Below, in pieces: positions 1-19,730 of a stretch of DNA of 20,782 bases (within the stretch, counting starts at the first letter, position 1; the number at the start of each line of letters is the position of its first letter). Origin of the DNA: a virus; IMG/VR virus record IMGVR_UViG_3300032246_001677, positions 1 through 20,782 of that record. One strand, written 5' to 3'. The position numbers and the translations under genes were made by a program. The notes beneath the pieces were generated by a model that worked only from the letters and a program-made list of their open reading frames with translations, ran no database searches and was not told the origin of the DNA.

Positions 1-1
1 C

Positions 2-4531: not shown

Positions 4532-4565
4532 TCGCACACCTCGCCATTGATGGTTGAAATCGAAT

Positions 4566-6791: not shown

Positions 6792-7057
6792 GCGATCCAG
6801 CCAGCCAACTGGCACTCATAGAGCGGTTAAAAGACAATTCTGGGTATAGCGAGTGGTACTTGCCGACCCTTTCAAGGCATTTAGAAGGGCTTAAAGAAGC
6901 AGTTCTAGAAGCTGGCATTAGCCCAGAGGAGCGTCAAAACAGGCACTCGGCCTATATGGCAGTTAAGGAAGTGCTGGCTCTAGTTCCGTCACAGGAGGCG
7001 GCACTTTATAGGATTTTGCAAGGCCACGAATCACGTCCAGAGCCTCGTCGTAAGTAA
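6788..7057 (+). CDS. Small helical protein after portal, unknown function
   Basis: This 89-residue, mostly helical, charged protein starts at an ATGA overlap with the portal stop, so it is probably translated by coupling; no Shine-Dalgarno precedes it. It has no Cys, signal peptide or membrane segment, and its end is basic (ESRPEPRRK). Phages often keep small head-assembly or portal-associated proteins here, but no family is recognisable. Its last 95 bases overlap the 3' end of the minus-strand glycosyltransferase-like gene, so its C-terminal 30 or so residues are encoded opposite that protein's C-terminus. The tail may have been reshaped when the minus-strand cassette arrived. Reality of the gene is supported by coupling and lack of other coding on this strand. 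Confidence 0.6.
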   Translation: MSDPASQLALIERLKDNSGYSEWYLPTLSRHLEGLKEAVLEAGISPEERQNRHSAYMAVKEVLALVPSQEAALYRILQGHESRPEPRRK

Positions 7058-8309
7058 AGAATTTGTCCACGAACTTGACCAGTCGAACCTTGTCGTCGGA
7101 AAGAACTTTTCTAGCTTCACAAAAGTCGGAATTGTTTCTGTGCAGACAAACATCCTCGTAACAAGCCGTACCAGGAAGCCTCACGCCGTGCAAAAGAGTA
7201 GAAGTTCTACTGCTTCGCTTGTCTGCAAAAGAGGCCTCATCGATCAGTTTATTCGCAGCATCATCAGAAATAGGATCCTGCATTGTAAAAAACAACTGCC
7301 GTGCATTAAAAGACGTGGCGACAACAGACGCATTGGAAGTATCCCAATCTCCGCTAGGCACATCAAGAATAACCATTCTGACGCCGCTTTCATCGAGTGG
7401 CTTGGCGGTTATGACGTTGTGCTGAAATATGCCAGTCCTTAAAGAGGAAAGAGCAGATTCAAAATCTGAAAATGGACTATTCTTATGAGCAATCCTGTTC
7501 TCGTCATCTTGTCTTTGGGATATAGTAACACCCAAAGACCCCCATATCTCACTAACAAACTCCACGGCAAACTTGAGGCCTATTTCTTCTTTTGATAAGC
7601 TATTTATCTCATCCAGAAGTGGCGAATCGCTCAATTTTTTGCGTTGAGCCTCAAGATCGGATCCATCAACCGACCTTATCACATTCAGCGGATGCTGTAT
7701 AAATTCGGAAAGCTCGGGAGAAGGGCAAGGCGAAATATCAAGCTTATTGCAAGCAAGCCCCAAAGGCCAAGAATGCGATCCCCTGCCATGAAACTGGGAA
7801 AAGTTGTGCCTTCGTAGTTCAAGTAATTCAGAAGGAGCAAGTAAGGCGGGGCTCAACAAAATCCCCTCGTCAACAAACCTACGTGCTGTAGGCCTGTCCA
7901 TTCCAAAGAACCCGCTTGCAGCGTAGTGCATAAATTCCAAGATGCCTGTGCTTTTTCTTTCAGCTACAGAAAATACCCTGCCTTTCACCCCATGCCCTTG
8001 ACTAAGAAGAGTCTCCTCAAGATCTGGTTGTGGCGTGCCAAAAGTGCAGTCGGGATCAACCTTTAATATATAAGAACCGCTCATGCGAAGAGCAAGAACA
8101 AGCAGTTCGTGGACTGCTAAACCTCCAGCCATGTGCAGATCGTCAGAAGTTGTCTGAATAAGGTCACAATAATCCTCAAGTTCTTTAGGATGCTCACACT
8201 TGTTGGCAAGTACACCTATTTTAGACGAAGGAAGTGTATTGCGAATCGCCCTTGCGGTATGCACTGATAATTCCTTGTCTCCATCCCATATCTGCATTAC
8301 AACAATCAT
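6963..8309 (-). CDS. Probable GT-A-type glycosyltransferase with extra C-terminal region
   Basis: The N-terminal half looks like a nucleotide-sugar glycosyltransferase of GT-A fold. It opens with a hydrophobic strand (MIVVMQIWDGD), followed by a helix (HTARAIRNTLP), a second strand and, near residue 105, YILKVDPDCTF, whose DPD fits the metal-binding DxD motif. ASGFFGMDRPTARRF, about 160 residues in, resembles the acceptor-side part of such enzymes. The C-terminal 200 residues are unassigned. The start at 8309 is chosen because its ATG overlaps the upstream stop as ATGA; an ATG at 8321 and an opening at 8387 would overlap the previous gene more. It is last in a four-gene minus-strand unit with a large Cys-rich protein, so it may modify a virion protein or host surface glycan. 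That role is inference. Its 3' end overlaps the plus-strand gene ending at 7057. Confidence 0.55.
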   Translation of the reverse strand: MIVVMQIWDGDKELSVHTARAIRNTLPSSKIGVLANKCEHPKELEDYCDLIQTTSDDLHMAGGLAVHELLVLALRMSGSYILKVDPDCTFGTPQPDLEETLLSQGHGVKGRVFSVAERKSTGILEFMHYAASGFFGMDRPTARRFVDEGILLSPALLAPSELLELRRHNFSQFHGRGSHSWPLGLACNKLDISPCPSPELSEFIQHPLNVIRSVDGSDLEAQRKKLSDSPLLDEINSLSKEEIGLKFAVEFVSEIWGSLGVTISQRQDDENRIAHKNSPFSDFESALSSLRTGIFQHNVITAKPLDESGVRMVILDVPSGDWDTSNASVVATSFNARQLFFTMQDPISDDAANKLIDEASFADKRSSRTSTLLHGVRLPGTACYEDVCLHRNNSDFCEARKVLSDDKVRLVKFVDKFFTYDEALDVIRGLAKSYKVPPPVTELEPALP

Positions 8310-8908
8310 TCCGTTCCCCATTTCTCCTTTGGACAACTCTGAGATGGCATACGAAGCTTTGCCTCCCCACAACCACAGACACGGCATCGGCCAGTGCCAA
8401 GGAAAGCTGTTGGGTCAAAGTATTCACATGACTGGCAAATAGACTTACGGAAAGCAAATGTCTCAGGCTTAACATGGGTTGTCAGAGTCTTGGTATTTAC
8501 TGCCTTTACAAAGGCGGCAGACAGGGTTTTTAGCTGATCCGCAGCTGAGGGAGATTTATAGAAAAGGTCTAACACACATCTCGGAGACACAGATATTTCC
8601 TTATCTACAGCGCATACCCATCCATTCCCCGTACATTTCTGCACATTCAAAGCACCTCTTTGGTAGCATTTACCAATCATTCCACGCCTAACAAACGGAT
8701 GAAGACTCTTCCAATCATCTTGTGAAGGCGATTTATATACGTACACAGTCTTTGTGTCGCTTTCGTAGGCTAGTGTTCTTAAAGCCCACAGCTCCTTAAG
8801 AAGCGGATCGGTATTTCCAGCCTCAAGCTTGTAGATCCTTCTGTCGAGCTCAATAGTCATCATTCCCTCCGAGAGTATAATTCCTTCTTCTGTAGTTTTA
8901 ATATTCAT
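8306..8908 (-). CDS. 200-residue protein with C-terminal zinc-ribbon-like Cys cluster
   Basis: Function unknown. The first 130 residues have beta-rich and mixed segments with scattered Cys and Trp. The last 45 hold an ordered Cys pattern: CQSCEYF, then CRVCGCG, then a final SCPKEKW. This spacing recalls small phage proteins ending in CxxC...CxxCGC...CPxxKW, which I remember from phage genomes beside structural genes but cannot name with certainty; zinc binding is plausible. It starts directly after the stop of the 873-residue gene, with a strong AGGAGG (8913-8918, minus strand) overlapping that gene's last codons, and its stop forms an ATGA with the glycosyltransferase-like gene. It is therefore expressed as part of the cassette and may be an accessory or assembly factor for the large Cys-rich protein. 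Confidence 0.6.
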   Translation of the reverse strand: MNIKTTEEGIILSEGMMTIELDRRIYKLEAGNTDPLLKELWALRTLAYESDTKTVYVYKSPSQDDWKSLHPFVRRGMIGKCYQRGALNVQKCTGNGWVCAVDKEISVSPRCVLDLFYKSPSAADQLKTLSAAFVKAVNTKTLTTHVKPETFAFRKSICQSCEYFDPTAFLGTGRCRVCGCGEAKLRMPSQSCPKEKWGTE

Positions 8909-11530
8909 CTAACCTCCTATTTTAGTAAAGTTTTCAAACGTTAGTGTTATCTTAAGTTCTGTATTCAGCTCCTCAAGGTCTTGAGCTTCGCCAAAACAAC
9001 CAAGCTCTCCCTGCCCTGTGGTTGTTGACGGAGGCTGAGCACCAGCATCATTCGTCGGACACGGGAAAGCCCCAGGAATTCTCTTATCTGTAATGCAACC
9101 GCCATCCCTTGCCCACAGGCAACAGCAACCACAGCAAGAGCACAGATCAAAGTGAAAATTGTTTCCTGGACAACAACAACCGCAACATGGTCCAGGAAGG
9201 TCGGGAGTCACGGTTCTCTTTGCAGCAAGTTTGCAGTTATCCCGACAACATTCATCCGTTACACTACCTCCTACTTTTCCTGCAAAGTCCTTACAGGGAT
9301 CACCTGACGCAATGCACCCATCGACTTGAGCTGGCCTGTCGACATAAAACATATTCGGCCCCCCTGAGCCATCTGCCCATCCTCCAGCGCATTCCCCTTT
9401 TTGTTTTGGGTCGTGAATTGTCCAAAGAGGGATATCCTTTGACCAATCTTTATTCTTTAGGGTTAATGTTCCAGCCTCCTTTACAAAAGCGGTGCTGGAA
9501 ATAATATTAGATTCATGCCATGCTTTGCATGTGGATATTACGGGAAGTTCAAATACTGGGCTGTTTATGTCGTATTCTGCGCCATATATGCTGGCTGTGT
9601 TAGCCCTGCTTTGTAGTATATTTTGCGTTCCTCTGAAAATAAAGCCAATGTTAATCGTATGATCGTCGCCTTCATTCGCATAAATACTTAGCGGCATTGG
9701 CGATTCCAAGTAATGGCTGGGGGTCGTCCCTGCCACAGCCCCATTTGTGTCTACGTAGTTGGCGATATGCAAGTCTATGCGATATGGCACGCTGCAACCA
9801 GATGTTGCCTTGCTAAAGTCGGAACCAGAGTTATGCGGGTAAAGTATAACTTCACCCCACCCATCCACCTCATAGCATTGTTTTGAGTATTCGCACGGAA
9901 ATCCCCATGTGCCTTGGGTACTACAATAATCACCGCAGTTGGGATCCCTGCCAAGAAGTTGTCCTGGATATGCCCTATAATCATATTTTCGCATTGAATC
10001 ATATAGCGGGCATTCCGACCCATCCCTTACGAGCCGCAATGCAGTTTGAATGGGTTCAGCTGCTGGAGATTTAAACACTTCATAGTTTCCTGGCCCTGTC
10101 CCATCATATTTACCGCATGGAGAATCCTTGTATACTTTTTCATCTCCATTTTCTCCAACAAACTCATATAAGCTCTCCACATAGCTTGCACTTAAGCTTG
10201 GGCCACTAACAAATCCTTTGCTGCCACTGAAAGCACCTGAATCGACCCCAGAATAACCAAAAGCTGAATCGACCCCAGAATAACCAAAAGGCTCAAATGC
10301 AAGCGGGCTGAGATACTTTGCAAGTATTCCACCAGTATTAAACGTAGAATCACATCGTTCGTCTTTAAGATTTTCGGACAAGAGATTGTCTTCTTGGTTT
10401 CTTCTAATTAGATCTATGTCTAGGCTTGGAACAACCGCACACCCAGCATCAAGCTTTTCCACTATTTGTCTTTCCCCCAAGAGCTTTGCTTTTGAATATA
10501 GGCTAGAATCAGGGCATTGGTTATATTCATACGGAGAACAAAAGCAGTCCCAGAGCTCTGTTATAGCTGAATGACGCAGGGCATTAGGCGTATTACTGCC
10601 TATGAGATAGTTGGGAGATAGATCCAGCTGAGTTGGTTCACCATTCCACAATGAAGACATCGCTTTATATCGGCTCATGGATCCTTCCAAGCCTCCACGT
10701 ACAGTAGCAGATATATTTTCTTGGGGTGATATACATTCATAACTATAAGTATTTGAAGCGGCCTTCCATTTCCAGGAGCAACTGCTACCTTCTCCATAGT
10801 AAAATGTACTAACTACTGTTCGTGCGCTTGGGCCACTACACTTAATAGTTTTTCTTTTAGACTCATGAGAGAATGAACCAGATATGCTAATTTTCTTGGT
10901 GCAGTTTAGTATGTTATGAGCTATTCCTGTGGGGATTGTAATGCTTGAAACAGGGAATGAGTTGACTATAGCATCTTCTTTTATTGCCTTATTTGTTCCT
11001 TCGCCGAACTTTGATGGCCTGTAAAGGTATGGGCCAGAGAACCCAGCTCCACCATCCACATCAACGCTAATGGGTGTTCCGTCATAATCCGTTGATTCAA
11101 ATTTGATTGGATACTTAGCGCATGCGTTGATCGGTATATTTTCTTGAGCTATTAAAGAGTAATCCGTGGCTGTTTTATTGTTTGGCTGCTTCCACGTTTT
11201 CAAAGCTTGTAGCTTGGAATACTGCTGCACGTCTTTTCTTTTCCTTCGGTTATCCGTGATATAAGTGTCGTATTCACTTAACTTATAGTTGTACTCTGGG
11301 TATTTCGTTTTCCCAATTCCGTAGGAAAGGCACCCATAGACTTCTTCTCCAAGGTCGTTCTCGTGAATACGTTTGAAACTGAGATCAACTTTTGCGGCCT
11401 TAGTTGCAGTTGTTTTGTAAATGTCGCCTTCTCTGTCATCTGAGGTACGAAGGTATTTGTTTAAAACCGACCCAAATGGGTTGTGGCTACCCGTACCAAA
11501 ACGCTGGAAAGATGTATGCCTACCCTTCAT
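8909..11530 (-). CDS. Large Cys-rich protein, candidate virion surface or adsorption protein
   Basis: This 873-residue protein has no recognised domain. It is rich in Gly, Ser, Tyr, Asn and Cys, has few long helices, and no signal peptide or membrane segment, a composition typical of beta-rich extracellular or virion-surface proteins. Cys residues are spread throughout and peak at 782-812, where two CCGCCC clusters (782-787 and 799-804) sit 11 residues apart with a single Cys at 797 and another at 812. A perfect 27-base tandem duplication gives repeated FGYSGVDS near residue 420. The ATG overlaps the upstream stop as ATGA. GC is lower than in neighbouring plus-strand genes, by eye. As the biggest product of a cassette placed inside the structural operon, a receptor-binding or fibre role is the best guess, but nothing proves it is in the virion. 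Confidence 0.6.
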   Translation of the reverse strand: MKGRHTSFQRFGTGSHNPFGSVLNKYLRTSDDREGDIYKTTATKAAKVDLSFKRIHENDLGEEVYGCLSYGIGKTKYPEYNYKLSEYDTYITDNRRKRKDVQQYSKLQALKTWKQPNNKTATDYSLIAQENIPINACAKYPIKFESTDYDGTPISVDVDGGAGFSGPYLYRPSKFGEGTNKAIKEDAIVNSFPVSSITIPTGIAHNILNCTKKISISGSFSHESKRKTIKCSGPSARTVVSTFYYGEGSSCSWKWKAASNTYSYECISPQENISATVRGGLEGSMSRYKAMSSLWNGEPTQLDLSPNYLIGSNTPNALRHSAITELWDCFCSPYEYNQCPDSSLYSKAKLLGERQIVEKLDAGCAVVPSLDIDLIRRNQEDNLLSENLKDERCDSTFNTGGILAKYLSPLAFEPFGYSGVDSAFGYSGVDSGAFSGSKGFVSGPSLSASYVESLYEFVGENGDEKVYKDSPCGKYDGTGPGNYEVFKSPAAEPIQTALRLVRDGSECPLYDSMRKYDYRAYPGQLLGRDPNCGDYCSTQGTWGFPCEYSKQCYEVDGWGEVILYPHNSGSDFSKATSGCSVPYRIDLHIANYVDTNGAVAGTTPSHYLESPMPLSIYANEGDDHTINIGFIFRGTQNILQSRANTASIYGAEYDINSPVFELPVISTCKAWHESNIISSTAFVKEAGTLTLKNKDWSKDIPLWTIHDPKQKGECAGGWADGSGGPNMFYVDRPAQVDGCIASGDPCKDFAGKVGGSVTDECCRDNCKLAAKRTVTPDLPGPCCGCCCPGNNFHFDLCSCCGCCCLWARDGGCITDKRIPGAFPCPTNDAGAQPPSTTTGQGELGCFGEAQDLEELNTELKITLTFENFTKIGG
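10237..10290. repeat. Perfect 27-base tandem duplication inside the Cys-rich gene
   Basis: Two identical 27-base units, 10237-10263 and 10264-10290, lie head to tail. The unit is a multiple of three, so the frame is kept and the protein gains a second FGYSGVDS segment. A perfect copy suggests a recent duplication or a length-variable site. Confidence 0.9.
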
Positions 11531-12069
11531 GCAGTGGTAATAAGCACGCCACGAAATCCGTTAATGCAGGCGGGTATAGCGATAGGAACAGAAAACGAGC
11601 TTTGGATAACTGGTGTTCTTAGGTTATTCCCAAACTTTGGGAATGGCTTGCTTTTCTTTACAAATCCAAGGAAATGACGAACTTTCGTTTGTTTTGCTAG
11701 ATCCTCTTCTGGCTCAAATAAAGGCTTAACGGATGGATATCCTTTAATTTCAGCCGACGTTACCTTCCCGTCATCGACATCGCATTCGATATATACATAA
11801 GTGCTTTCTCCTGCGACACTTTTTTCGTCTCCAAGACCTTCAACTGCAGAAGAAACGCCATAAATAAAAGAACCTATTGGGTTTACCTTGTATGACGATA
11901 CTTGATTGCCTTGAAATCTAGCTGGGTAAATCTGGAAAAAAGCATTCCAAGAAAAAAACTTTGGGTTGATTGTTCCTTCCCCAAAAAACCTTGCCGCTTG
12001 CCCGACAACGTAGCCGTACCCAGAGGCTGGACTAACTCCTAGCGGCCCTATGGGCTTCTTGGTACTCAT
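11527..12069 (-). CDS. 180-residue unknown protein, first gene of the minus-strand cassette
   Basis: No family is recognised. The N-terminus is Gly/Pro-rich (KKPIGPLGVSPASGYGYVVG), the middle has aromatic beta-like segments (FFQIYPARF, VYIECDVDDG) and the C-terminus is hydrophobic-beta (SSFSVPIAIPACING). There is no signal peptide or membrane helix. It is the most upstream gene of the unit and its stop overlaps the start of the 873-residue Cys-rich protein as ATGA, so the two are probably made together; it could be an N-terminal adaptor or partner for it. The ATG at 12069 is preceded by CGGAG with only one base of spacing, which is a poor ribosome site. Confidence 0.5.
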   Translation of the reverse strand: MSTKKPIGPLGVSPASGYGYVVGQAARFFGEGTINPKFFSWNAFFQIYPARFQGNQVSSYKVNPIGSFIYGVSSAVEGLGDEKSVAGESTYVYIECDVDDGKVTSAEIKGYPSVKPLFEPEEDLAKQTKVRHFLGFVKKSKPFPKFGNNLRTPVIQSSFSVPIAIPACINGFRGVLITTA

Positions 12070-12085
12070 ACTCCGATTACACTTT

Positions 12086-12094
12086 TGCTATAAA
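12086..12094 (+). promoter_or_regulatory. Possible extended -10 promoter in the divergent gap
   Basis: In the gap between the minus-strand cassette and the scaffold-like gene, the plus strand reads TGCTATAAA, an extended -10 shape (TGn plus TATAAA). No -35 lies at normal spacing, as expected for extended -10 sites. It would start transcription near 12101 with a leader of about 77 bases. A bacterial-type promoter is sensible because the scaffold and capsid genes cannot be read through from the oppositely oriented cassette, but a phage-specific promoter is equally possible. On the minus strand, only weak matches (TGTAAT at 12076-12081 with TTGTTT upstream) are present, and these would give an almost leaderless message. 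Confidence 0.3.
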
Positions 12095-12177
12095 CAAAAA
12101 CAACTAGGCATTACCCTATGCGTCGCACGCACTAACAAATCTCTTCCGTTCTTGCTCTAGGTCTTTTGGCTTGTTGC

Positions 12178-13146
12178 ATGAGCGAAAATAATACTCTGGC
12201 GCAAGCCGAGATAACAACCCCTCAAACAAGTGCAGAACCACAAGTTGCTGCACGGACGGAATCTAACGTGGCGACACTTGATGAGCGTGCTTATCACGAG
12301 CTCGTCCAAGGTCTAAAGGAAACGGCGGAACCCGCCCCAACTCCAGAGGCTCCCAAGGAAGAGCCTACGGCTGAACAAGCCCCTGCGGTTGAGGAAGCTC
12401 CAGTCGAAACGAAGGCCGAAGACGAGAACGAAACAGCAGAGACAGAATCCGAACTCCCCGAAAGGGTGCGTATCGGAAGCTGGTCTGAGACCGAACGCAA
12501 AGCTCTCAAGATTCGGGCTAGGAATCCAGACCTCACCCTTGAGCAGGCTATGGCCATGGTCAAAGGAGAGGCTGAACCAGCCAAAGAGGAGCAGTTTGTA
12601 GCTCCCGCCGATATCGAGGCCAAGATTGACGAAGTAGCGCAGGCGAAAGCCGCCGCTTTTAAGAATCTTGAATTCGACAAGGTTGCCGAACTTGAAGTCG
12701 AAATGCTGAAACTGAACAAAGAACTTCGGAAGTCTGAAAAGATGGCTACCGAACGTGAGTCTGTTCAGCAGACGCAACGCAACAAGGGAATTGAAGAAGC
12801 AAAGGCTCGTGCCGTGGAGTTTTATCCCGATGCGGGCAAAGCCGACTCGGCCCTCGTGAAGAAGATGAATGAGATCTTTGACACGATGGTCGATACAGGG
12901 AATCCCCTTGTAAAAGACCCTTCGATGCCATTCAAGCTGACACAAATGGCTGCTAATGAGCTTGGGATTGCTCCCCGCAACCCTAGCGCAAAAGCACCCT
13001 CGCCAAGTGTCGCCCGCAAGGCTCCGTCAATTCAACCCGCGAGCGGTAACGCCCGCACAACTCCAACAGCTCCGCTTAATGCTAAAGCTTTGGCCGACAA
13101 ACTGGACGATCTTGAGTCGTATCAGCTCTTGATGGCAAAGCTCTAG
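12178..13146 (+). CDS. Scaffold-like head assembly protein
   Basis: This 322-residue acidic protein lies immediately upstream of the major capsid gene, the usual place for a scaffold. The N-terminal 110 residues are Glu/Ala/Pro/Thr-rich and probably disordered. There follows a helical section (SETERKALKIRARNPDLTLE), a coiled coil at about 155-205 (KVAELEVEMLKLNKELRKSE), a region ending VKDPSMPFKLTQMAANELG, and a Pro/Ala/Ser-rich tail. Scaffolds act as an internal core and leave or are cleaved after shell assembly. I take ATG 12178; an in-frame TTG at 12166 would add MACC and is less likely. No strong Shine-Dalgarno is visible for either start. Low sequence conservation of scaffolds makes composition and position the main evidence. 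Confidence 0.65.
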   Translation: MSENNTLAQAEITTPQTSAEPQVAARTESNVATLDERAYHELVQGLKETAEPAPTPEAPKEEPTAEQAPAVEEAPVETKAEDENETAETESELPERVRIGSWSETERKALKIRARNPDLTLEQAMAMVKGEAEPAKEEQFVAPADIEAKIDEVAQAKAAAFKNLEFDKVAELEVEMLKLNKELRKSEKMATERESVQQTQRNKGIEEAKARAVEFYPDAGKADSALVKKMNEIFDTMVDTGNPLVKDPSMPFKLTQMAANELGIAPRNPSAKAPSPSVARKAPSIQPASGNARTTPTAPLNAKALADKLDDLESYQLLMAKL

Positions 13147-13172
13147 GGCGGGGCTTACAAACCCAAAAGAAT

Positions 13173-13178
13173 AGGAGG
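13173..13178 (+). promoter_or_regulatory. Strong ribosome binding site of the major capsid gene
   Basis: A perfect AGGAGG ends 8 bases before ATG 13187, in an A-rich context (ATATTAAA). It is among the best placed sites in the window, as expected for the most abundant virion protein. Confidence 0.8.
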
Positions 13179-13186
13179 ATATTAAA

Positions 13187-14731
13187 ATGGCTAACCTTTT
13201 AATTCCTGAAAACAATTCGACGAGTACAATCTCGTCACAAGCTTCCAATTTTCTACCAGAACTTTGGAAGAAAGGGGTGCAACTTTCGGAGGCTGCGGAG
13301 AATTTCTTCCAGCAGTTCGAAGGCCCCACAGAAAGCTACCCAGTCATGTCCATCCGTGACTTGAGCAAAGGTGCTGGAACCAAAATCACGTTCCGCACGA
13401 TGGCTCAACTCTACGGCGAAGGCGTGCAGGGTGAAACACTCATCCAAGACAACACGGAAGACTTCCGAGTCGGATCTTATAATCTGACTGTGGATTTCTT
13501 GCGTCACGCTGTCTCTTACAATCGTCGGCTCGAGGAAAAAACTGCTCTCGCCTCCGAATTGAAGAGCAATGTTCCTGTGATGCTCGGTAACTGGCTCGGA
13601 CGGATGAAAACCGAACGACTCCAGAAGCTGTTCCTTCACAAAGGTACTGCGAAAAACTACTACCAGGCTAATGGAAAAGGATCTATTGATGCCCTCGGAC
13701 ACAAAGATACCTTGTCCTACGACGGCTTGATCGCCGCTGGTCAGCAACTCCGCACTCGTGGGGCTACTCCTGCGACTATCGGACAAGTTGGCAAGAACAA
13801 GATCAAGAAGTTCGTTATCGTTTCAACAGGCGAAGGCTTGCTTTCCCTAAAGAGCGAATCGAAATATCTGGCCGCCTTGAACGCAGCCGCCGCCGCCGAA
13901 GGTGAAAATGCAAAGCAGTTCACTGGTGGATTTGTTGATCTCGATGGTCACGTTATCCGTCAGTATGACCCTGCCGACCACGATGGATTTGGTGCAATCG
14001 GATCTCCGATCAATGCCAAAGCCAGCTTGGGTGAAGTGTTCACCATCAGCAATGCAACTGCTAACTCGACTAGCATCCAGCTCAAAGGTGGCGGGTCGGC
14101 TACTGCCGCCGCTAAAACCGCTCCTAAATACTTCAAGTATTTCAGCGGGTACACCTATCCGACTGGTCTCGACCAGACCGAAACGGCCATTAACTTCTCG
14201 AATCCTACTGGCACGGCCAGCGGGACGAGCTACACGAAGGGATTCATTCTGGTCCTCTCGAGCGGTAAGTATGGTCTGTACAAGTACACCACCAATAACG
14301 GCAACCAGCTTACCCTGACTGCCGCACTCGTAAAAACGACTGGTGGGTTCACTGCTGGTACCTTCAATGTTACCCGCTCTACTTGGAACACCAACGAAAC
14401 CGTTACCCTAGATACTGGAGCGTTCTCCGATACCAACATCACCAACACTCACGCTGTCGGTGATTTAATCATCGAGTGTAACGCACAGGGCGTACCGATC
14501 GGTCGCACGATGGTTCTTGGAGCTATGGCCGCAGTTCGTGGCTACGGATCCTTGGACGGCGAGCGTTCCGAAGAGACGTTCGATGGCGAGTTCATTCGCA
14601 AAACCTACATCACGAGCATCTTTGGGCAGAGCCCTTATGTCCGTGTTGACGGCGAACAACCCAACTACCTAGTTCTGAACCACGCTGTTCAGTACGCTGG
14701 CTTGGTGTTGCCAGTGAATAACCTCGCATAG
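13187..14731 (+). CDS. Major capsid protein, N4 gp56-like family
   Basis: The protein forms the icosahedral shell (HK97-type fold). Recognition rests on the N4-gp56-family pattern: TKITFRTMAQLYGEGVQGETL, then NLTVDFLRHAVSYNRRLEEK near 100-120, a helix with MLGNWLGRMKTERLQKLFLHKG, FVIVSTGEGLLSL and GGFVDLDGHVIRQYDP, and a C-terminal MVLGAMAAVRGYGSLDG followed by ITSIFGQSPYVRVDGEQPN. At 514 residues it is longer than the roughly 400 I expect for the family. Residues of about 285-420 form a Thr/Ser/Asn/Gly-rich, beta-like section that probably makes up the difference. It follows the scaffold-like gene by 40 bases, has an excellent ribosome site, and is closed by a strong intrinsic terminator, which together suggest high-level expression from its own message. 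Confidence 0.85.
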   Translation: MANLLIPENNSTSTISSQASNFLPELWKKGVQLSEAAENFFQQFEGPTESYPVMSIRDLSKGAGTKITFRTMAQLYGEGVQGETLIQDNTEDFRVGSYNLTVDFLRHAVSYNRRLEEKTALASELKSNVPVMLGNWLGRMKTERLQKLFLHKGTAKNYYQANGKGSIDALGHKDTLSYDGLIAAGQQLRTRGATPATIGQVGKNKIKKFVIVSTGEGLLSLKSESKYLAALNAAAAAEGENAKQFTGGFVDLDGHVIRQYDPADHDGFGAIGSPINAKASLGEVFTISNATANSTSIQLKGGGSATAAAKTAPKYFKYFSGYTYPTGLDQTETAINFSNPTGTASGTSYTKGFILVLSSGKYGLYKYTTNNGNQLTLTAALVKTTGGFTAGTFNVTRSTWNTNETVTLDTGAFSDTNITNTHAVGDLIIECNAQGVPIGRTMVLGAMAAVRGYGSLDGERSEETFDGEFIRKTYITSIFGQSPYVRVDGEQPNYLVLNHAVQYAGLVLPVNNLA

Positions 14732-14742
14732 TTATTTGGAGA

Positions 14743-14781
14743 GCGGGGTCGAGGGGAAACCCTCGGCCCCGCCTTCCTTTT
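14743..14781 (+). terminator. Intrinsic terminator after the major capsid gene
   Basis: A 13-bp stem (14743-14755 paired with 14760-14772, one G-T pair) closes on a GAAA tetraloop (14756-14759) and is followed by CTTCCTTTT. It begins 11 bases after the capsid stop. The last T is directly followed by the ATG of the next gene, so readthrough or a second promoter must feed the downstream genes. Confidence 0.9.
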
Positions 14782-15087
14782 ATGAAGCTCCTCATCACGA
14801 TTACTGGTTCATCCCGATACAACCCATTCATCAGGCTTTCTGGTGGATCTGGGAATCCTTACACATTTACTTGGAGTAATGAATTCAATGCTCATGTTTG
14901 GAGTCGTGGATTTGTTACACAAGATGACTCAAAACAGATTGATGACATTTTTGCTACTGGAGACGCTTTTTACAGGCCAGCTATTAAAATTATTAAAGAT
15001 GAAAAAAGGGCTATTGAAACCCCTATTCAAGATGCCCCAGCACCTATCGCAAAGACTAGGAGACCTCGCAAGGCGGTGGCTGTATGA
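14782..15087 (+). CDS. Small unknown virion-region protein following the capsid gene
   Basis: This 101-residue protein has an N-terminal beta-like segment (MKLLITITGSSRYNPFIRL), aromatic stretches (YTFTWSNEFNAHVW), a helix around DDSKQIDDIFATGDAFY, and a Pro/Arg-rich tail (KTRRPRKAVAV). I recognise no family. Its only in-frame Met is at 14782, directly after the T-tract of the capsid terminator, so no Shine-Dalgarno lies in the usual place. The stop overlaps the next start as ATGA, which supports a real gene. Positions after the capsid gene often hold head-completion or decoration proteins, but that is only contextual. Confidence 0.6.
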   Translation: MKLLITITGSSRYNPFIRLSGGSGNPYTFTWSNEFNAHVWSRGFVTQDDSKQIDDIFATGDAFYRPAIKIIKDEKRAIETPIQDAPAPIAKTRRPRKAVAV

Positions 15088-15761
15088 ACGTCACCCAAGC
15101 CATAGATGCAATTTATGAAGTTTTCGGCATACCAAATAATGCGTCTGCCCCCGAGATCATGCGGAGGCGGATATTCAACGACCTTAATTCGGCGTTACAA
15201 CTCATCTGGGTCAAGGGGCATCGTTTATTGGATTACTACACTCGTAGGGCGGTTACTGCGACGATCTCGGCCAATGCCAATAGTGTTGTCCTCGACGACT
15301 CGGTTGAAGCGGTTCTCGGGCCTGTAAAGCGTGTTTCTGATGGCGTGGGGCTTCGCCCGATCCGCACTAGGGGCGAGTATGATTCATTTGCTTCAATCTA
15401 TGCTGGGAGTCTGACGGCCCTTACTGGAGCCCCTCCCCAAGCCTATTTTGCCGAGGAAAAGCGTCCATCCTCAGATCAAGCTGATTCAACTTCGATTACT
15501 TTATTTGTTGTCCCTGTGCCGACCACAAGCACCCAGCTCTCGGTAGAGGCTTCAATTCGAGCCCCAGCTTTCACTACGACTGATTACACGAACTCAACGG
15601 CTATCCCAATGCCTCATAACTACGCAGAAACCCTGCTGTTGCCTATCGCTCGATACCTATCCAGCAGTTCCCTGTTCTTTGCCGACAAGTCAAAGCAGAG
15701 AGAGCCTTTATTAAAAGCCGAGTATGACAGGGCGTTAAAAACTCTGGAGGAGGCCAAATGA
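15084..15761 (+). CDS. Adaptor or head-tail connector-like protein
   Basis: The 225-residue protein has helical ends around a beta-rich core, the layout of podoviral adaptor proteins that sit beneath the portal and dock the tail. It starts with a helix (VTQAIDAIYEVFGI, then APEIMRRRIFNDLNSALQLI). A beta core follows (AVTATISANANSVVLDD to STQLSVEASIRAP), and then a C-terminal helical pair with IPMPHNYAETLLLPIARYLS and LLKAEYDRALKTLEEAK. This ending (Pro-rich turn, 'LLPIARYL', 'EYDRAL') is common among adaptors. It is coupled by ATGA overlaps at both ends. The next gene has the same layout. Assignment is by architecture only. Confidence 0.55.
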   Translation: MNVTQAIDAIYEVFGIPNNASAPEIMRRRIFNDLNSALQLIWVKGHRLLDYYTRRAVTATISANANSVVLDDSVEAVLGPVKRVSDGVGLRPIRTRGEYDSFASIYAGSLTALTGAPPQAYFAEEKRPSSDQADSTSITLFVVPVPTTSTQLSVEASIRAPAFTTTDYTNSTAIPMPHNYAETLLLPIARYLSSSSLFFADKSKQREPLLKAEYDRALKTLEEAK

Positions 15762-16627
15762 CATCATTACAGCTCGCTCAAAGGATTATATCGTTCACTA
15801 ACCTCCCTAATGATCCAATCTCAATCCATGCCGACCAAGCCTCCACTCTTATAGGTGCGATCAATGCTGGCTTTGCCAAATACTATTTTTCGGCTCCATC
15901 TGGGCGTAAGACAACCCCTGTCACCTCGTTCCAGCTTGCCCCTGTAAGCGTCTCGGTTGGACTGACCCAAGGATCTAGGAACGTGACAGGCCTCACCCTG
16001 TCATCTGATACAGACAGGATTGGAGATACGCTTGAGGTTGGTAATCGCAAATGTCCCCTTGGAGTTGGGTCTACGCTTCGGGATCCGTGGTCTTTGGCTA
16101 CTGGCAACTATACTGGCCTTCTGTATGACGATGCCATCCCGCTATGGGCTCCAATCCGAAGAATCGAAGGATCTGTTATCTGGGACGAGGATCATCGCTT
16201 AACCTTCCTTTCCGAGTCTCCAGTACGGCAAGACACTCTTACCTACTACAGGCAGAGCGGTCTTCCAGCTTACTACACGGCAGAATACCTTGGAGACACT
16301 ATTGGCGGTGGAGCTAGGGCTTTGGTTCGAGTTGTCCCCCTGCCTACCAAGGCATCTTCGATTCGTTTTTCGGCCTCGCTAGAGCCACAGCAACTGGTTT
16401 TGTCGGATCTACAAACCCCTATTGGTATTTACACGCCAAGCTCCGACATCGAGGCATTTCTAGTTCCCATTATTATTGGAGAGCTGGCTACAACCTCCCT
16501 GCTTAAAGCAGACGCAGACAAGAACCTTATTGTAAAGAAGGCGGCTGAGTCATTGGCCTTCTTGAAGACGTACCACGAGCCTATCAGCGGGGCTACAAAC
16601 TTAATGATGACTCCTGTGGGGTTTTAA
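15758..16627 (+). CDS. Second adaptor or tail-connector-like protein
   Basis: This 289-residue product has the same plan as its neighbour. N-terminal helices (LQLAQRIISFTNLP, then LIGAINAGFAKYYF) are followed by a long beta-rich core (FQLAPVSVSVGLTQGS, a TLEVGN segment and SVIWDEDHRLTFLSE). A late section, VRVVPLPTKASSIRFSASLEP, leads to a C-terminal helical part, IEAFLVPIIIGELATTSLL. It is probably a tail-nozzle or second adaptor ring and may be an ancient duplicate of the preceding gene. The start is well defined: AGGAGG at 15748-15753 lies 4 bases before ATG 15758, which also overlaps the previous stop. No enzymatic motif is visible. Confidence 0.5.
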   Translation: MTSLQLAQRIISFTNLPNDPISIHADQASTLIGAINAGFAKYYFSAPSGRKTTPVTSFQLAPVSVSVGLTQGSRNVTGLTLSSDTDRIGDTLEVGNRKCPLGVGSTLRDPWSLATGNYTGLLYDDAIPLWAPIRRIEGSVIWDEDHRLTFLSESPVRQDTLTYYRQSGLPAYYTAEYLGDTIGGGARALVRVVPLPTKASSIRFSASLEPQQLVLSDLQTPIGIYTPSSDIEAFLVPIIIGELATTSLLKADADKNLIVKKAAESLAFLKTYHEPISGATNLMMTPVGF

Positions 16628-16628
16628 T

Positions 16629-17219
16629 ATGGCTCTTGTCGTACCACTATCCTCCTCGGCGAATGTAATCTCTAATATCCTTTTCAAGGTGCGTAGAGGG
16701 ATTGCGTTGTCTCGGAATGCCTCACAGGCAAACGCAGCTACTGGGGTAATGGTCGATTTGCCAGAAAAGATTGATTTTGAGATGACTCTATTAAGGACTT
16801 ATCAATCGCCAGTATATCAAAGGATAGTAAGCACGACCGCATCAGATGTAGGGGTTGAGACAAAGGGAGTTACATCCTCAGAAACCTCTTCAAGTCTCAA
16901 GATTTCAAGCGACTCAGACGTAAAGCGTTCTACCGAGACAGGTAGTAACCAATCTTTGGAGCAGAGTACAAAAAATTCAAACGGAAGCGATCAAGCAAAT
17001 CAAACAACGTCGGGGACAGGGACAACGTCTGATAGCGATAGTTCGCAAGAAACAACAACAGGGAAAGGTAATCAGAGCTCATCCGAAGATACCCAAGGAA
17101 CCAAGACTGCTACCGACTCCGAGGACGCAAAGCATTGTACGGTTCAAAGTCACAACGCCAATAGGTACTACGACAAGTTTGATACGGACACAGGGGAATT
17201 ACAGGGAATTAGCGGATAG
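16629..17219 (+). CDS. Conserved N-terminal domain with Ser/Thr-rich tail, paralogue 1
   Basis: Function unknown. The first 60 residues form a compact domain with a helix (FKVRRGIALSRNASQAN) and a strand (GVMVDLPEKIDFEM). Positions 21-52 align without gaps to residues 20-51 of the product of 17910-18536, with 24 of 32 identical by my count. A Ser/Thr/Asn/Gln-rich low-complexity region of about 100 residues follows, then a short end with FDTDTGEL. The helix-then-FE-strand pattern recalls small bacterial proteins that begin with helices and continue 'V.FDVAVTV', sometimes grouped with trypco2-like domains; that link is from memory and unproven. No signal peptide or TM segment is present. The ATG follows the upstream stop by one base, with GGGG 7 bases before it. 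The gene is coupled to neighbours of similar composition, so a shared virion or host-takeover role is possible. Confidence 0.6.
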   Translation: MALVVPLSSSANVISNILFKVRRGIALSRNASQANAATGVMVDLPEKIDFEMTLLRTYQSPVYQRIVSTTASDVGVETKGVTSSETSSSLKISSDSDVKRSTETGSNQSLEQSTKNSNGSDQANQTTSGTGTTSDSDSSQETTTGKGNQSSSEDTQGTKTATDSEDAKHCTVQSHNANRYYDKFDTDTGELQGISG

Positions 17220-17223
17220 GAGG
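17218..17223 (+). promoter_or_regulatory. Ribosome binding site fused to the upstream stop codon
   Basis: AGGAGG begins inside the TAG stop of the preceding gene (TAGGAGG) and lies 4 bases before ATG 17228. A terminating ribosome sits on the next gene's start signal, favouring coupled translation of the Ser-rich protein. Confidence 0.75.
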
Positions 17224-17227
17224 CTAT

Positions 17228-17665
17228 ATGGCATACACACTCGTTGACACAAGAAACGCCTCAATTGCAAATAATTCCGCAAGTGTAAACACAACTGGAA
17301 CAACAACTGGAACGATCACTAACACTGGAAGCACCACTTCCACTTCAAGCGTCAGCTCGAGTAGGTCTGCAACGTCAAGCTCAAGCGGTAGCAGATCTTT
17401 GACATCGTCCAACAGCAGCAGTCGTTCCAGCACAAACAACGCAAGCGGAAGTGCAAGCAGAAGCGGATCCTCGAGCAGCTCAAACTCGGCAAGCTCAACA
17501 TCGACGCAAACATCAAATGCTTCTTCTTCTGGGACATCTTTGCAGTCATCTACCAATAATCGTTCTGGTTCATCAAATAGGGTCGAGACACAAAGAGACG
17601 ACGTTGGTTGCGTAATAAGGTTTAGCGTTCCGATCGTTGTGCAGTACCCAGGAGACGTGCAATGA
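17228..17665 (+). CDS. Serine-rich low-complexity protein with beta-like C-terminus
   Basis: Of 145 residues, 48 are Ser by my count, with Thr, Asn and Gly making up much of the rest; the low-complexity part spans about residues 10-120. There are no aromatic residues between Tyr3 and the C-terminus. The last 25 residues return to normal composition (CVIRFSVPIVVQYP), a likely beta-strand pair. In the bacterial family recalled for the flanking paralogues, a strand like 'RIKFSVPVVLP' follows the FE-strand in the same chain. This protein may therefore carry the second half of a domain whose first half is in the gene before it (inference). It is coupled at both ends: TAGGAGG upstream and an ATGA overlap downstream. 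Function is unknown; disordered spacer, fibre or decoration are all possible. Confidence 0.6.
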   Translation: MAYTLVDTRNASIANNSASVNTTGTTTGTITNTGSTTSTSSVSSSRSATSSSSGSRSLTSSNSSSRSSTNNASGSASRSGSSSSSNSASSTSTQTSNASSSGTSLQSSTNNRSGSSNRVETQRDDVGCVIRFSVPIVVQYPGDVQ

Positions 17666-17913
17666 GCCGATCTGAACATCGGGAGTTCATGTCCGAAAGA
17701 ATGGCTCGGATGGAAGAACGCATGATTGCGATATCTAAAGACGTATCCGAGATGAAGGACGTAATGGAGAAGAGTTATTCCACCTTTGGCGATTTGGCTA
17801 ATAGAGTCAGCAGCCTTGAGGGCTTTAAGAAGTTTTTTATTTTAGCCGCATCTGCCGTTGGATCCCTTGTTGGGTTTGTTGTTGAGGCTGCAATAAACTG
17901 GAGGAACAAATGA
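17662..17913 (+). CDS. Coiled-coil protein with C-terminal membrane segment (XhlA-like layout)
   Basis: The 83-residue protein is a Met/Glu/Arg-rich helix (about residues 4-53) followed by one hydrophobic segment (about 58-76, FFILAASAVGSLVGFVVEA) and a short basic end. This layout is shared with small phage proteins of the XhlA type that act with holins, and also with other phage membrane coiled-coil proteins. It lies between the two Ser/Thr-rich paralogues, not beside the lysis genes, with ATGA overlaps on both sides. It could recruit those proteins to the inner membrane, act in lysis, or anchor part of the tail during entry. No catalytic residues are present. Confidence 0.55.
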   Translation: MSRSEHREFMSERMARMEERMIAISKDVSEMKDVMEKSYSTFGDLANRVSSLEGFKKFFILAASAVGSLVGFVVEAAINWRNK

Positions 17914-18536
17914 CAATCGTAGATCTGTCTGATCTCGATACATTTATCCGTGACTCCCTGTACGAAGTTAGAAAAGGAATTGCGAACTCCAGAAACGCAA
18001 CACAGGCCAATCCAATGCTCGGAGTTATGGTTGATCTGCCAGAGAAGGTTGATTTCGAGATAATGGTCACGACTGCCTATCAGAGCTTAAGCAGAAATTC
18101 CATAGCCCAAGATTCCGACTCCGTGGTCGAGCTTTCAAGCGAGAACCAGCAAACAACAAGCAAGTCGACGGAATATGTTGTTGGTGGGGGACTAAGCCTC
18201 ACTTCTTCTTCCGCAACTGAAAGCAGTACGGATGCTTCCAAGGAAATAGGGTCAAACACCGAAAGTGGGTCGGGCTCGGAGAGCAACTCAGAAAATGAAA
18301 ACAAAAACGGAACAACAACAGGGGCAGATCAAAACACGGAAACTCGAAATGGGACTACCCGAGAAAACAAAAGCAACAGCGACAAGAAACAAGAGAAATC
18401 CACTCGAACTGAACAACACCTAGAGGCAAACGATCGTGCCTCAAAGGCCTTCGACGAAGATACTGGTGCCTATGGCGGTCAGGGACAAATTGCTACCCCG
18501 TCTTACGAAGGAGGCTCGCCGTGCAGTTGCGGTTAA
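17910..18536 (+). CDS. Conserved N-terminal domain with Ser/Thr/Asn-rich tail, paralogue 2
   Basis: This is a 208-residue paralogue of the product of 16629-17219: residues 20-51 (EVRKGIANSRNATQAN, then VMVDLPEKVDFEI) match that protein closely. Here the N-terminus is better defined, with a leading helix (LSDLDTFIRDSLYEV). A long low-complexity region rich in Ser, Thr, Glu, Asn and Lys follows at about 70-170. The end has AFDEDTGAY, matching FDTDTGEL in the paralogue, then a Gly/Ser-rich tail with CSCG. Both ends are thus conserved while the middle is free to drift, which suggests the two ends are the working parts. GGAGG lies 5 bases before the ATG, and the ATG overlaps the previous stop. The stop overlaps the spanin-like gene by 16 bases. 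Molecular function is unknown. Confidence 0.6.
   Translation: MTIVDLSDLDTFIRDSLYEVRKGIANSRNATQANPMLGVMVDLPEKVDFEIMVTTAYQSLSRNSIAQDSDSVVELSSENQQTTSKSTEYVVGGGLSLTSSSATESSTDASKEIGSNTESGSGSESNSENENKNGTTTGADQNTETRNGTTRENKSNSDKKQEKSTRTEQHLEANDRASKAFDEDTGAYGGQGQIATPSYEGGSPCSCG
18508..18514 (+). promoter_or_regulatory. Ribosome binding site that defines a GTG start
   Basis: AAGGAGG, inside the 3' end of the preceding gene, ends 6 bases before GTG 18521. It selects this non-ATG start for the lipoprotein gene and puts the signal sequence at the extreme N-terminus. Confidence 0.75.
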
Positions 18537-18913
18537 TAGCACTGGCTATCTTTATCTGTGGATGCTCGACTCCTAGGCATTCGGCAGACTTCTCGGTGGC
18601 CGAAGCACGCATTGACGAGGCCATTGCTGTAGCCAACCCAGAAGCCAAGAAGCACCTAGTTGTAGCCAAGGCACAGTTAGAGACAGCCGTACAGGCCTGT
18701 AAGCAGACCTCCGTTGATTTAGACGAGGCCGTCAAAGAAAAGAACGAGGCAATTAAAGATGCTGGGGTCTGGAAAGACAAACAGCGCAAGGCGTTGAAGG
18801 AGCTTTGGATCTATCGTGGGGCTCTTATCGCTTTAGGGCTATGGATGTTTAGAGGTGTCCTATTTGGGGGTGTTATGTTTGTGGCTAGAAAGTTTGTGGG
18901 GATCCCTTGGTGA
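18521..18913 (+). CDS. Candidate unimolecular spanin (lipoprotein with C-terminal TM)
   Basis: The 130-residue product begins with a short hydrophobic signal and a lipobox-like ICGC (Cys15 would be lipidated), continues with a helical, Ala/Glu/Lys-rich periplasmic-type section (about 25-95, EAKKHLVVAKAQLE, then VKEKNEAIKDAG) and ends with a hydrophobic segment at about 97-122 and a basic tail. Unimolecular spanins such as T1 gp11 have this order: outer-membrane lipid anchor, periplasmic helix, inner-membrane C-terminal TM. They fuse the two membranes in the last step of lysis of Gram-negative hosts. The following genes encode a holin candidate and a peptidoglycan hydrolase, which fits. An Arg near 111 interrupts the hydrophobic segment, a small doubt. 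An ordinary phage lipoprotein is the alternative. Confidence 0.6.
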   Translation: MQLRLIALAIFICGCSTPRHSADFSVAEARIDEAIAVANPEAKKHLVVAKAQLETAVQACKQTSVDLDEAVKEKNEAIKDAGVWKDKQRKALKELWIYRGALIALGLWMFRGVLFGGVMFVARKFVGIPW

Positions 18914-19257
18914 AAAGGTTTTTCTCAAAGTTCCAAGGCCTTGGCTCGTTTTGTATCGCAATCATTGTGTTCTGGTCGGCTGCACCTCTTATTCAGCAGG
19001 CCGATCCTTCTGCTGGAACTTATGATAGAGGATCCTTGCATGGCTTAATCCTTGGGGCTTCTGCCTATTTGCTTGCTGTGTGGCTTAGTTGGTTCGTGAT
19101 CCAAATGGAATGGCCATCAATCAATGAATATATTGATACTTTGAGCTGGCTACAGGATTGGAGGGGTGCCACTAGAACTGTACGCCTTGTCATTGTTCTT
19201 TGCCTATGGGCCGTCCTTTTTATAGGAGCCGTAGTATGCCTTCTTGGCTGGCGATAA
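18910..19257 (+). CDS. Three-TM membrane protein, holin candidate
   Basis: The 115-residue protein has hydrophobic segments at about 12-29, 43-64 and 92-113, separated by a short polar loop with DPSAGTYDRG and an amphipathic loop with several Trp. Three TM segments and this size match class I holins, which time lysis by forming holes in the inner membrane. It lies between the spanin-like and hydrolase genes. I choose GTG 18910, which overlaps the upstream stop as GTGA, over TTG 18907. No dual-start motif is evident. Because the next gene has its own signal peptide, the protein could be a pinholin or simply a membrane accessory. Confidence 0.55.
   Translation: MKRFFSKFQGLGSFCIAIIVFWSAAPLIQQADPSAGTYDRGSLHGLILGASAYLLAVWLSWFVIQMEWPSINEYIDTLSWLQDWRGATRTVRLVIVLCLWAVLFIGAVVCLLGWR
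19224..19228 (+). promoter_or_regulatory. Ribosome binding site that sets the hydrolase start
   Basis: AGGAG ends 7 bases before ATG 19236. It favours this start over the in-frame TTG at 19200, and places the hydrophobic signal segment at the N-terminus. Confidence 0.7.
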
Positions 19258-19730
19258 TCCTCCTAGCCACTTCCCTTTCAATCGCTGACGACCGAGGATG
19301 CGTCCTCGCACAAGCCAGAAAGATGATTGGAGTAAAGGAGTGGGGCGTAAACACAGGGCCAGAAGTAGACATCATCTTGTCATCGGTTGACCTTGAGCCA
19401 GGGAATCCTTGGTGTGCCGCTTTTAACTACTATGTCTTTCGCCAAGCTGGGCATGGGAACCTAGTCCCTAAAACAGGCTGGAGCCCATCTTGGGTGGCTG
19501 GGGGCAAGAGAGTCGACTATTCGCCCCCCGCTTCTGTATTCGGGATCTATTTCAGCTCCCTTGGGCGGGTAGCCCATACAGGCATCATTGAGAGAACAGA
19601 GAATGGGTTTGCCACCACAATCGAGGGTAATACCAACTCGGCTGGGGATCGGGGTGCTGGCGGGGGTGACGGCGTATACCGCCGAAAGAGGTCGATGCGA
19701 ACGCTCCTGTGCCGAGATTGGCTTAAATGA
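19236..19730 (+). CDS. Exported CHAP-type peptidoglycan hydrolase (endolysin candidate)
   Basis: This 164-residue enzyme would cut peptide or amide bonds of peptidoglycan. Residues 1-18 are a hydrophobic signal (MPSWLAIILLATSLSIA) with a plausible cleavage before DD. The rest is one NlpC/P60-superfamily CHAP-like domain. Catalytic candidates are Cys60 in GNPWCAAF, His114 in VAHTGIIE and Glu130 in TIEGNTN, in the usual order. The domain is full length with a short basic end. It overlaps the holin-candidate gene by 22 bases, and its stop overlaps the next start as ATGA. A cleavable signal would let the enzyme reach the periplasm by Sec without a large-hole holin; a signal-anchor-release mode is possible if it is not cleaved. 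Alternatively it could be a virion-entry hydrolase, but the lysis context favours lysis. Confidence 0.75.
   Translation: MPSWLAIILLATSLSIADDRGCVLAQARKMIGVKEWGVNTGPEVDIILSSVDLEPGNPWCAAFNYYVFRQAGHGNLVPKTGWSPSWVAGGKRVDYSPPASVFGIYFSSLGRVAHTGIIERTENGFATTIEGNTNSAGDRGAGGGDGVYRRKRSMRTLLCRDWLK

Follow-up and report, generated by a model that had tools for sequence, protein, structure and literature searches.

Three adjacent genes of an uncultured phage, named here A, B and D, are kept together and keep their products locked in length; the middles of these products show two-residue periodicity and a sidedness of charge, and the charges of A and D complement each other. A single rod in which A, B and D run parallel and in register, each as a chain of its own kind (in the simplest case a 1:1:1 heterotrimer), is the probable explanation (roughly 70%). 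The balance of the evidence also leans towards an undescribed fibre principle, i.e., a sequence-degenerate, residue-locked, three-chain rod of two-residue repeats, the length of which is evolvable and tuned by matched changes in three genes. The function of such a fibre would be of a known type, and its architecture may be of a new kind.

The genes were found in a window of 20,782 nucleotides (the whole stretch of DNA analysed), which is a 20.8 kb IMG/VR virus record with near relatives of up to about 64 kb. The window encodes an SU10-type portal (PF23899, 4e-26) and a capsid protein of the Phage_capsid_3 type. The features considered are as follows.

15084..15761, plus strand: g225, a paralogue of g289 and a conserved neighbour, apparently at the position of the SU10 adaptor gene
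15758..16627, plus strand: g289, a paralogue of g225 and a conserved neighbour, coupled to A
16629-17219, plus strand: gene A
16629..16799, plus strand: N-terminal domain of A, residues 1-57, a paralogue of the D N-domain; predicted helix at 7-34, then GVMVDLPEKIDFEM
16827..17123, plus strand: middle of A, residues 67-165, two-residue-periodic and Ser/Thr/Gly-rich, a proposed rod strand
17142..17216, plus strand: conserved C-terminal segment of A with the KFDTDTG anchor, K at 17175
17228-17665, plus strand: gene B
17228..17278, plus strand: conserved N-terminus of B, residues 1-17, starting, in register, near the end of the A/D N-domain
17279..17572, plus strand: Ser-rich middle of B, residues 18-115; even face 85% Ser and never charged (17 phages)
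17573..17662, plus strand: conserved C-terminus of B, including VETQRDDVGCVIRFSVPIVVQYPGDVQ; GC anchor at 17606
17662..17913, plus strand: C, coiled coil and one transmembrane (TM) segment, not length-coupled
17910-18536, plus strand: gene D
17910..18077, plus strand: N-terminal domain of D, residues 1-56, a paralogue of the A N-domain
18105..18398, plus strand: middle of D, residues 66-163, a two-residue-periodic strand, its charges anticorrelated with those of A at the same register
18414..18533, plus strand: conserved C-terminal segment of D with FDEDTG (F at 18450) and a terminal C-x-C
18521..18913, plus strand: E, lipobox ICGC, coiled coil and C-terminal TM segment, unimolecular-spanin-like
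18907..19257, plus strand: F, three hydrophobic segments, holin-like
19200..19730, plus strand: endolysin (PHROG 1.8e-14; Pfam CHAP 4e-5, just under the cut-off), likely start at 19236

The first residues of A and D are clearly related, with 33 identities in an ungapped alignment of the first approximately 69 residues and at most 7 at any other offset. The core A21-51/D20-50 contains 24 identities, which agrees with the hand count of an earlier note on this DNA. All coordinates in that note were correct, and it was also right about FDxDTG at the C-termini of both proteins (KFDTDTG in A, AFDEDTG in D), the 48 Ser among the 145 residues of B, and C as a coiled-coil protein with one TM segment (a charged, heptad-like N-terminal half and hydrophobic residues 55-79). 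AlphaFold modelled the N-domain of A, as a single chain, as one helix (pLDDT 77, pTM 0.51). Nothing usable was obtained by PHROGs searches of A, B, C and D and Pfam searches of A, C and D, and A, B and D matched no fibre family by sequence. Trypco2 (PF19631) was considered for the N-domain and rejected, giving no match at E <= 10 and being absent from the hits of 21 members. On the opposite strand, an open reading frame (ORF) within B (17224-17679) was attributed to the Ser codons, which are expected to leave such a shadow.

The N-domain of A has no match among 50,697 annotated phage records or 84,980 bacterial and archaeal genomes, and thus marks an uncultured phage family without a known host; A, B and D are likewise missing from the annotated phages and bacterial genomes searched. 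The nearest annotated portal match, MW202601, gave no useful information. Relatives were sought with A, the portal, profiles of the N-domain and of g225, and the C-terminus of B as queries, all of which recovered essentially one set of virus contigs, B and A occurring on the same contig family. Exactly two N-domains each were found in the window record and in 10 of 10 long-contig relatives. Three lineages are visible: in lineage 1, to which the window belongs, the matched part of the portals is 93-100% identical, and at least 98% in nearly every case; lineage 2 has portals 70-76% and g225 67-72% identical, and lineage 3 has g225 65-68% identical. The relatives are metagenomic assemblies, in which repeats may be misassembled, though the exact agreement in 21 sets described below argues against it.

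A, B and D co-occur in the same order in all 21 complete sets, which come from the three lineages. A stop codon fused to a ribosome-binding site (TAGGAGG) joins A to B, and a 4-nt overlap is found at both B/C and C/D. On such junctions the earlier note had based a coupled set of four genes, including C. These overlaps exist, but they are not special to the four genes: between 14782 and 20664 all junctions are overlaps or gaps no longer than 8 nt, and since the overlaps are unbroken from g101 (14782) to the phosphoesterase gene (20664), coupling defines no four-gene unit. What survives of this unit is a three-chain one, A-B-D, whereas C is separable. C lies between B and D in lineages 1 and 2 and has moved upstream of g289 in lineage 3 (L069, L077, L107 and the fragment L071), and A-B-D are adjacent in all three lineages, including the phages with the moved C. 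Loss of linkage in related phages had been named as an argument against the set; linkage of A-B-D is kept (21/21), and the position of C is not. Membrane anchoring, also suggested before, found no support in A, B and D: only the TM segment of C speaks for it, and C is not coupled in length to the other three.

Within lineages, the whole lengths of A, B and D are correlated with r = 0.998-0.999 and slopes of 1.005 and 1.02 in 17 phages; the lengths have an SD of about 28 aa and their differences of 1.4-1.7, and none of 100,000 permutations was as good. For a more exact comparison, lengths were taken between anchors, from DLP[ED] to the [FL]DxxTG motif in A and D and from the start to GC[VI][IV][RK]F in B; these motifs were picked after the whole-length agreement had been seen, and identical anchors were used in all sets. 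In 21 of 21 complete sets D minus B equals 12, and A minus B is 11 or 13. The anchor length of B takes 13 distinct values, from 79 to 207, all of them odd, so that every change of length comes in units of two residues. For phages whose portals are nearly identical, the range is 127 to 207. A 22nd set, consisting of A and B only, has a B of 199, again odd, and A minus B of 11. As several sets are near-identical, the 21 counts are not all independent, and the independent evidence consists of the 13 distinct lengths found across three lineages. The product of another very variable gene, m873, is 860-922 aa long in relatives and is not locked to the length of B.

This lock is kept while the sequence is changing rapidly. 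In phages with portals 98-99% identical, the best aligned segments of A and D have identities as low as 39-68% and 39-81%, respectively, and the loss sits in the middles: between the window and L001, the N-domains are 89% identical and the middles 30% (A) and 18% (D). The middles had been described as freely drifting; this holds for their sequence, but not for their length and polarity.

In all 57 middles (19 sets of three chains), identity at even lags exceeds that at odd lags, and the two-residue periodicity has p <= 0.05 in 55 of them, including all three of the window, against 0 of 7 control proteins of the window. A collagen-like pattern, with Gly at every third residue, was not found in these 57 middles, where the period is two residues and even lags dominate. 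Counted from the anchors, the two faces keep their places. Ser makes up 85% and Thr 9% of the even positions of B in 17 sets, and the charged residues of B number 0/1118 on the even face vs 166/1118 on the odd one; the corresponding values are 111/1118 vs 494/1118 for D and 122/1109 vs 433/1126 for A. GAS alternation reaches significance in most B chains but in fewer than half of those of A and D. Several measures of charge and periodicity were tried, and those reported, except GAS alternation, were defined before the comparison of own with other phages described below.

Two phages deviate in their A chains. The A middles of L011 (8001-8813) and L013 (8001-8717) consist of Gly/Lys/Asn-rich (GNGKG)n repeats in which charge sidedness is lost or reversed (even 0.35 vs odd 0.16 in L011, 0.23 vs 0.20 in L013). 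Their length lock is kept despite these repeats, and their D partner is strongly acidic. These Gly/Lys-rich chains with Gly on the odd face are not explained by a simple inside/outside model.

On the outward face, the charges of A and D are opposed at the same register within one phage, with a mean r of -0.166 and negative values in 16 of 17 phages; none of 5,000 random shifts gave as low a correlation. When repeat-rich phages or close relatives were left out, the frequencies were 0/5,000 (n = 15) and 0.0002 (n = 9). A paired with D from another phage gave r +0.005 (own vs mismatched, p = 1.8e-6). The signal is centred at zero offset, reaches +/-2 residues and is near zero at odd offsets. It is strong for the phages as a group, but its size is modest, and for the window alone it is weak (-0.08). 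The charges of B showed no clear or significant register signal with those of A or D, so that the place of B is argued from its length and sidedness.

The combination of equal length, two-residue steps, sidedness and A-D pairing is best explained by three extended parallel in-register strands. The physical complex, its 1:1:1 stoichiometry and the beta-type conformation of A, B and D are what we infer from these features. Each middle would be an extended strand having an inward, uncharged, Ser/Thr-rich face and an outward face that bears Asp, Glu, Lys, Arg, Asn and Gly. A and D, sharing the N-terminal domain, would be register neighbours with opposing charges, and B, starting at the end of that domain, would be the third chain. 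The base would thus be made of two N-terminal domains and the rod of three chains, the short conserved C-termini (FDxDTG, GC-IRFSVPIVVQ, cysteines) serving as a tip or register clamp; the geometry may be that of three strands, or of six from two trimers. Because each residue would face residues of the partner chains, the sequence would be nearly free and the length would not, and a change of length in one gene would call for the same change in the other two, two residues at a time. With fully extended strands, the fibre is predicted to be roughly 30-75 nm long.

In an improbable alternative, each of the three proteins makes a homotrimeric fibre of its own, or all of them supply numerous strands to an axial sheath or tube surrounding the tail; they would have to reach between the same two virion levels and hence be of equal length. 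The exact length lock and the two-residue strand pattern would be explained by this as well. However, the complementarity of A and D charges in the same phage, absent between phages, suggests direct A-D contact, and a build of two N-domains plus one short chain suits a mixed trimer. That the middles are intrinsically disordered spacers, owing their two-residue periodicity and even lengths to slippage by six bases in repetitive DNA, has very little probability in our opinion. Their composition is of low complexity and some of them, like those of L066 and L009 with 10-residue repeats in each of the three chains, are tandemly repeated almost to perfection, but the middles of the window are periodic without obvious tandem repeats. 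Moreover, slippage, as an event in a single gene, cannot hold three genes equal to the residue, hold the charges of B to one face in 17 of 17 phages, or make those of A and D oppose at register.

The three-chain rod is probably best placed at the tail or neck, attached near g225 and g289, as the position of its genes suggests; fibre-like ORFs also occur elsewhere in the genome, which counts against this reading. Of the virion set acting together that the earlier note had envisaged, joint action is upheld by the A/B/D length lock and the A-D register charges, gene position being the one argument for location in the virion. The paralogy of g225 and g289 was confirmed by hhalign (91%, E 1e-6), and they possibly form a two-protein ring at the neck; the AlphaFold model of g289 was unusable (pLDDT 46).

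Most known phage fibres are homotrimers. The T4 gp37 needle and the fibre shafts of adenovirus and reovirus are thin trimeric beta shafts, the length of which follows the repeat number; they differ from the proposed rod in being homotrimers with other repeats, so that no gene has to match another in length. Serine-rich repeat adhesins of Gram-positive bacteria have long (Ser-X)n stalks resembling the stretches of B, but they are single chains anchored to the cell wall, whereas no LPXTG anchor or export signal is present here.

Among the literature searched on heterotrimeric or serine-rich phage fibres, only the cases of DSLV2 and A-1(L) were relevant, and neither a length lock between genes for fibres nor a Ser/Gly fibre code of two residues was found described. 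As a precedent for the proposed rod, three consecutive genes of the virophage DSLV2 give a thin, 1:1:1 heterotrimeric tail fibre of about 16 nm; the chains are of comparable length, similar to the T4 gp37 tip, have the collar domain PF07484 and are located on the capsid, and fibres of this type are widespread in uncultured aquatic viruses (PMC12724248). A, B and D, known from sequence alone, are likewise encoded by three consecutive genes with products of comparable length. They differ in having no Pfam match, Ser/Gly two-residue repeats and a residue-exact lock across 79-207 residues, and in that two chains share an N-domain missing from the third. Neither PF07484 nor another fibre domain of Pfam was detected in A and D (E <= 1) or in 21 N-domains (E <= 10). 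The neck fibres gp80-gp82 of cyanophage A-1(L) are a three-gene fibre near the neck, in which homotrimers are stacked end to end (PMC10966104), in contrast to three different chains side by side as proposed here.

In the Kuravirus SU10, the long tail fibre gp12/gp13 is composed of homotrimers of large proteins, its genes follow the adaptor gene and lie between the capsid/adaptor and holin/endolysin genes, and three fibre N-termini bind the adaptor asymmetrically, 2+1 (PMC9509320). A, B and D appear to match this gene position, and the portal is of the same Pfam family. As a guess, A/D plus B may fix such a 2+1 arrangement genetically, and the paralogous g225 and g289 may do the same for the ring. 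No sequence similarity was found between the N-terminal anchor of SU10 gp12 and the A/D N-domain (hhalign probability 0.3%), or any match of g225 and g289 to SU10 gp11.

The evolution of phage fibres is usually read from sequence; here the sequence is nearly free, register, parity and equal length are kept across three genes, and the usual homology tools find nothing. If confirmed, this would be a new class of protein rod with a simple code (small or hydroxyl residues inside, charged residues outside, partners charge-paired) and a natural length series for study, and comparing adjoining genes for a length lock would become a way to find other heteromeric fibres encoded by phage genes that lack annotation. 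A further question is how three genes alter their length in step.

Downstream of D, E, F and the endolysin (18521-19730) make a compact set of a spanin-like protein, a three-TM holin-like protein and a CHAP endolysin with an overlapping start, which by its predicted products is a lysis cassette and suggests a host with an outer membrane. E has the lipobox ICGC near its N-terminus and a hydrophobic C-terminal segment at 100-122, as in the definition of u-spanins (PMC6139136). A periplasmic cysteine was absent from 58 of 58 surveyed u-spanins (PMC6139136), and E carries an internal Cys (...LETAVQACKQT...), so that it is named u-spanin-like only. Against XhlA-like family profiles C gave no accepted match (DUF7201 at 0.0036, below the cut-off; PHROG holin/antiholin at 0.013). 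That A, B and D themselves belong to lysis or envelope disruption, with C being XhlA-like and the set running into spanin, holin and endolysin, is hardly credible in spite of the unbroken gene coupling into E-F-endolysin, the weak similarity of C to holin-associated PHROGs (E 0.013 and 0.064) and the u-spanin plan of E (PMC6139136), since coupling extends equally upstream into g225 and g289, no signal peptide or TM segment is apparent by reading in A, B and D, E-F-endolysin alone is a complete lysis set, and C moves independently of A-B-D.

Several other observations concern the rest of these genomes. In L077, an extra 160-aa ORF (4444-4926) lies between g225 and the moved C, and it is absent from the relative L069. 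Within the cluster of head genes, m873, m200 and m474 are encoded on the minus strand. The product of m873 (8909-11530, minus strand) is 24-48% identical between phages with portals 98-99% identical, and m873 is likely a second host-interaction gene. The first ORF of the window (1-4531, plus strand) is already open at position 1 and matches the end of an ORF of more than 5,500 codons (1-16572) in L109, so it probably encodes the C-terminal portion of a giant protein of the virion or of ejection.
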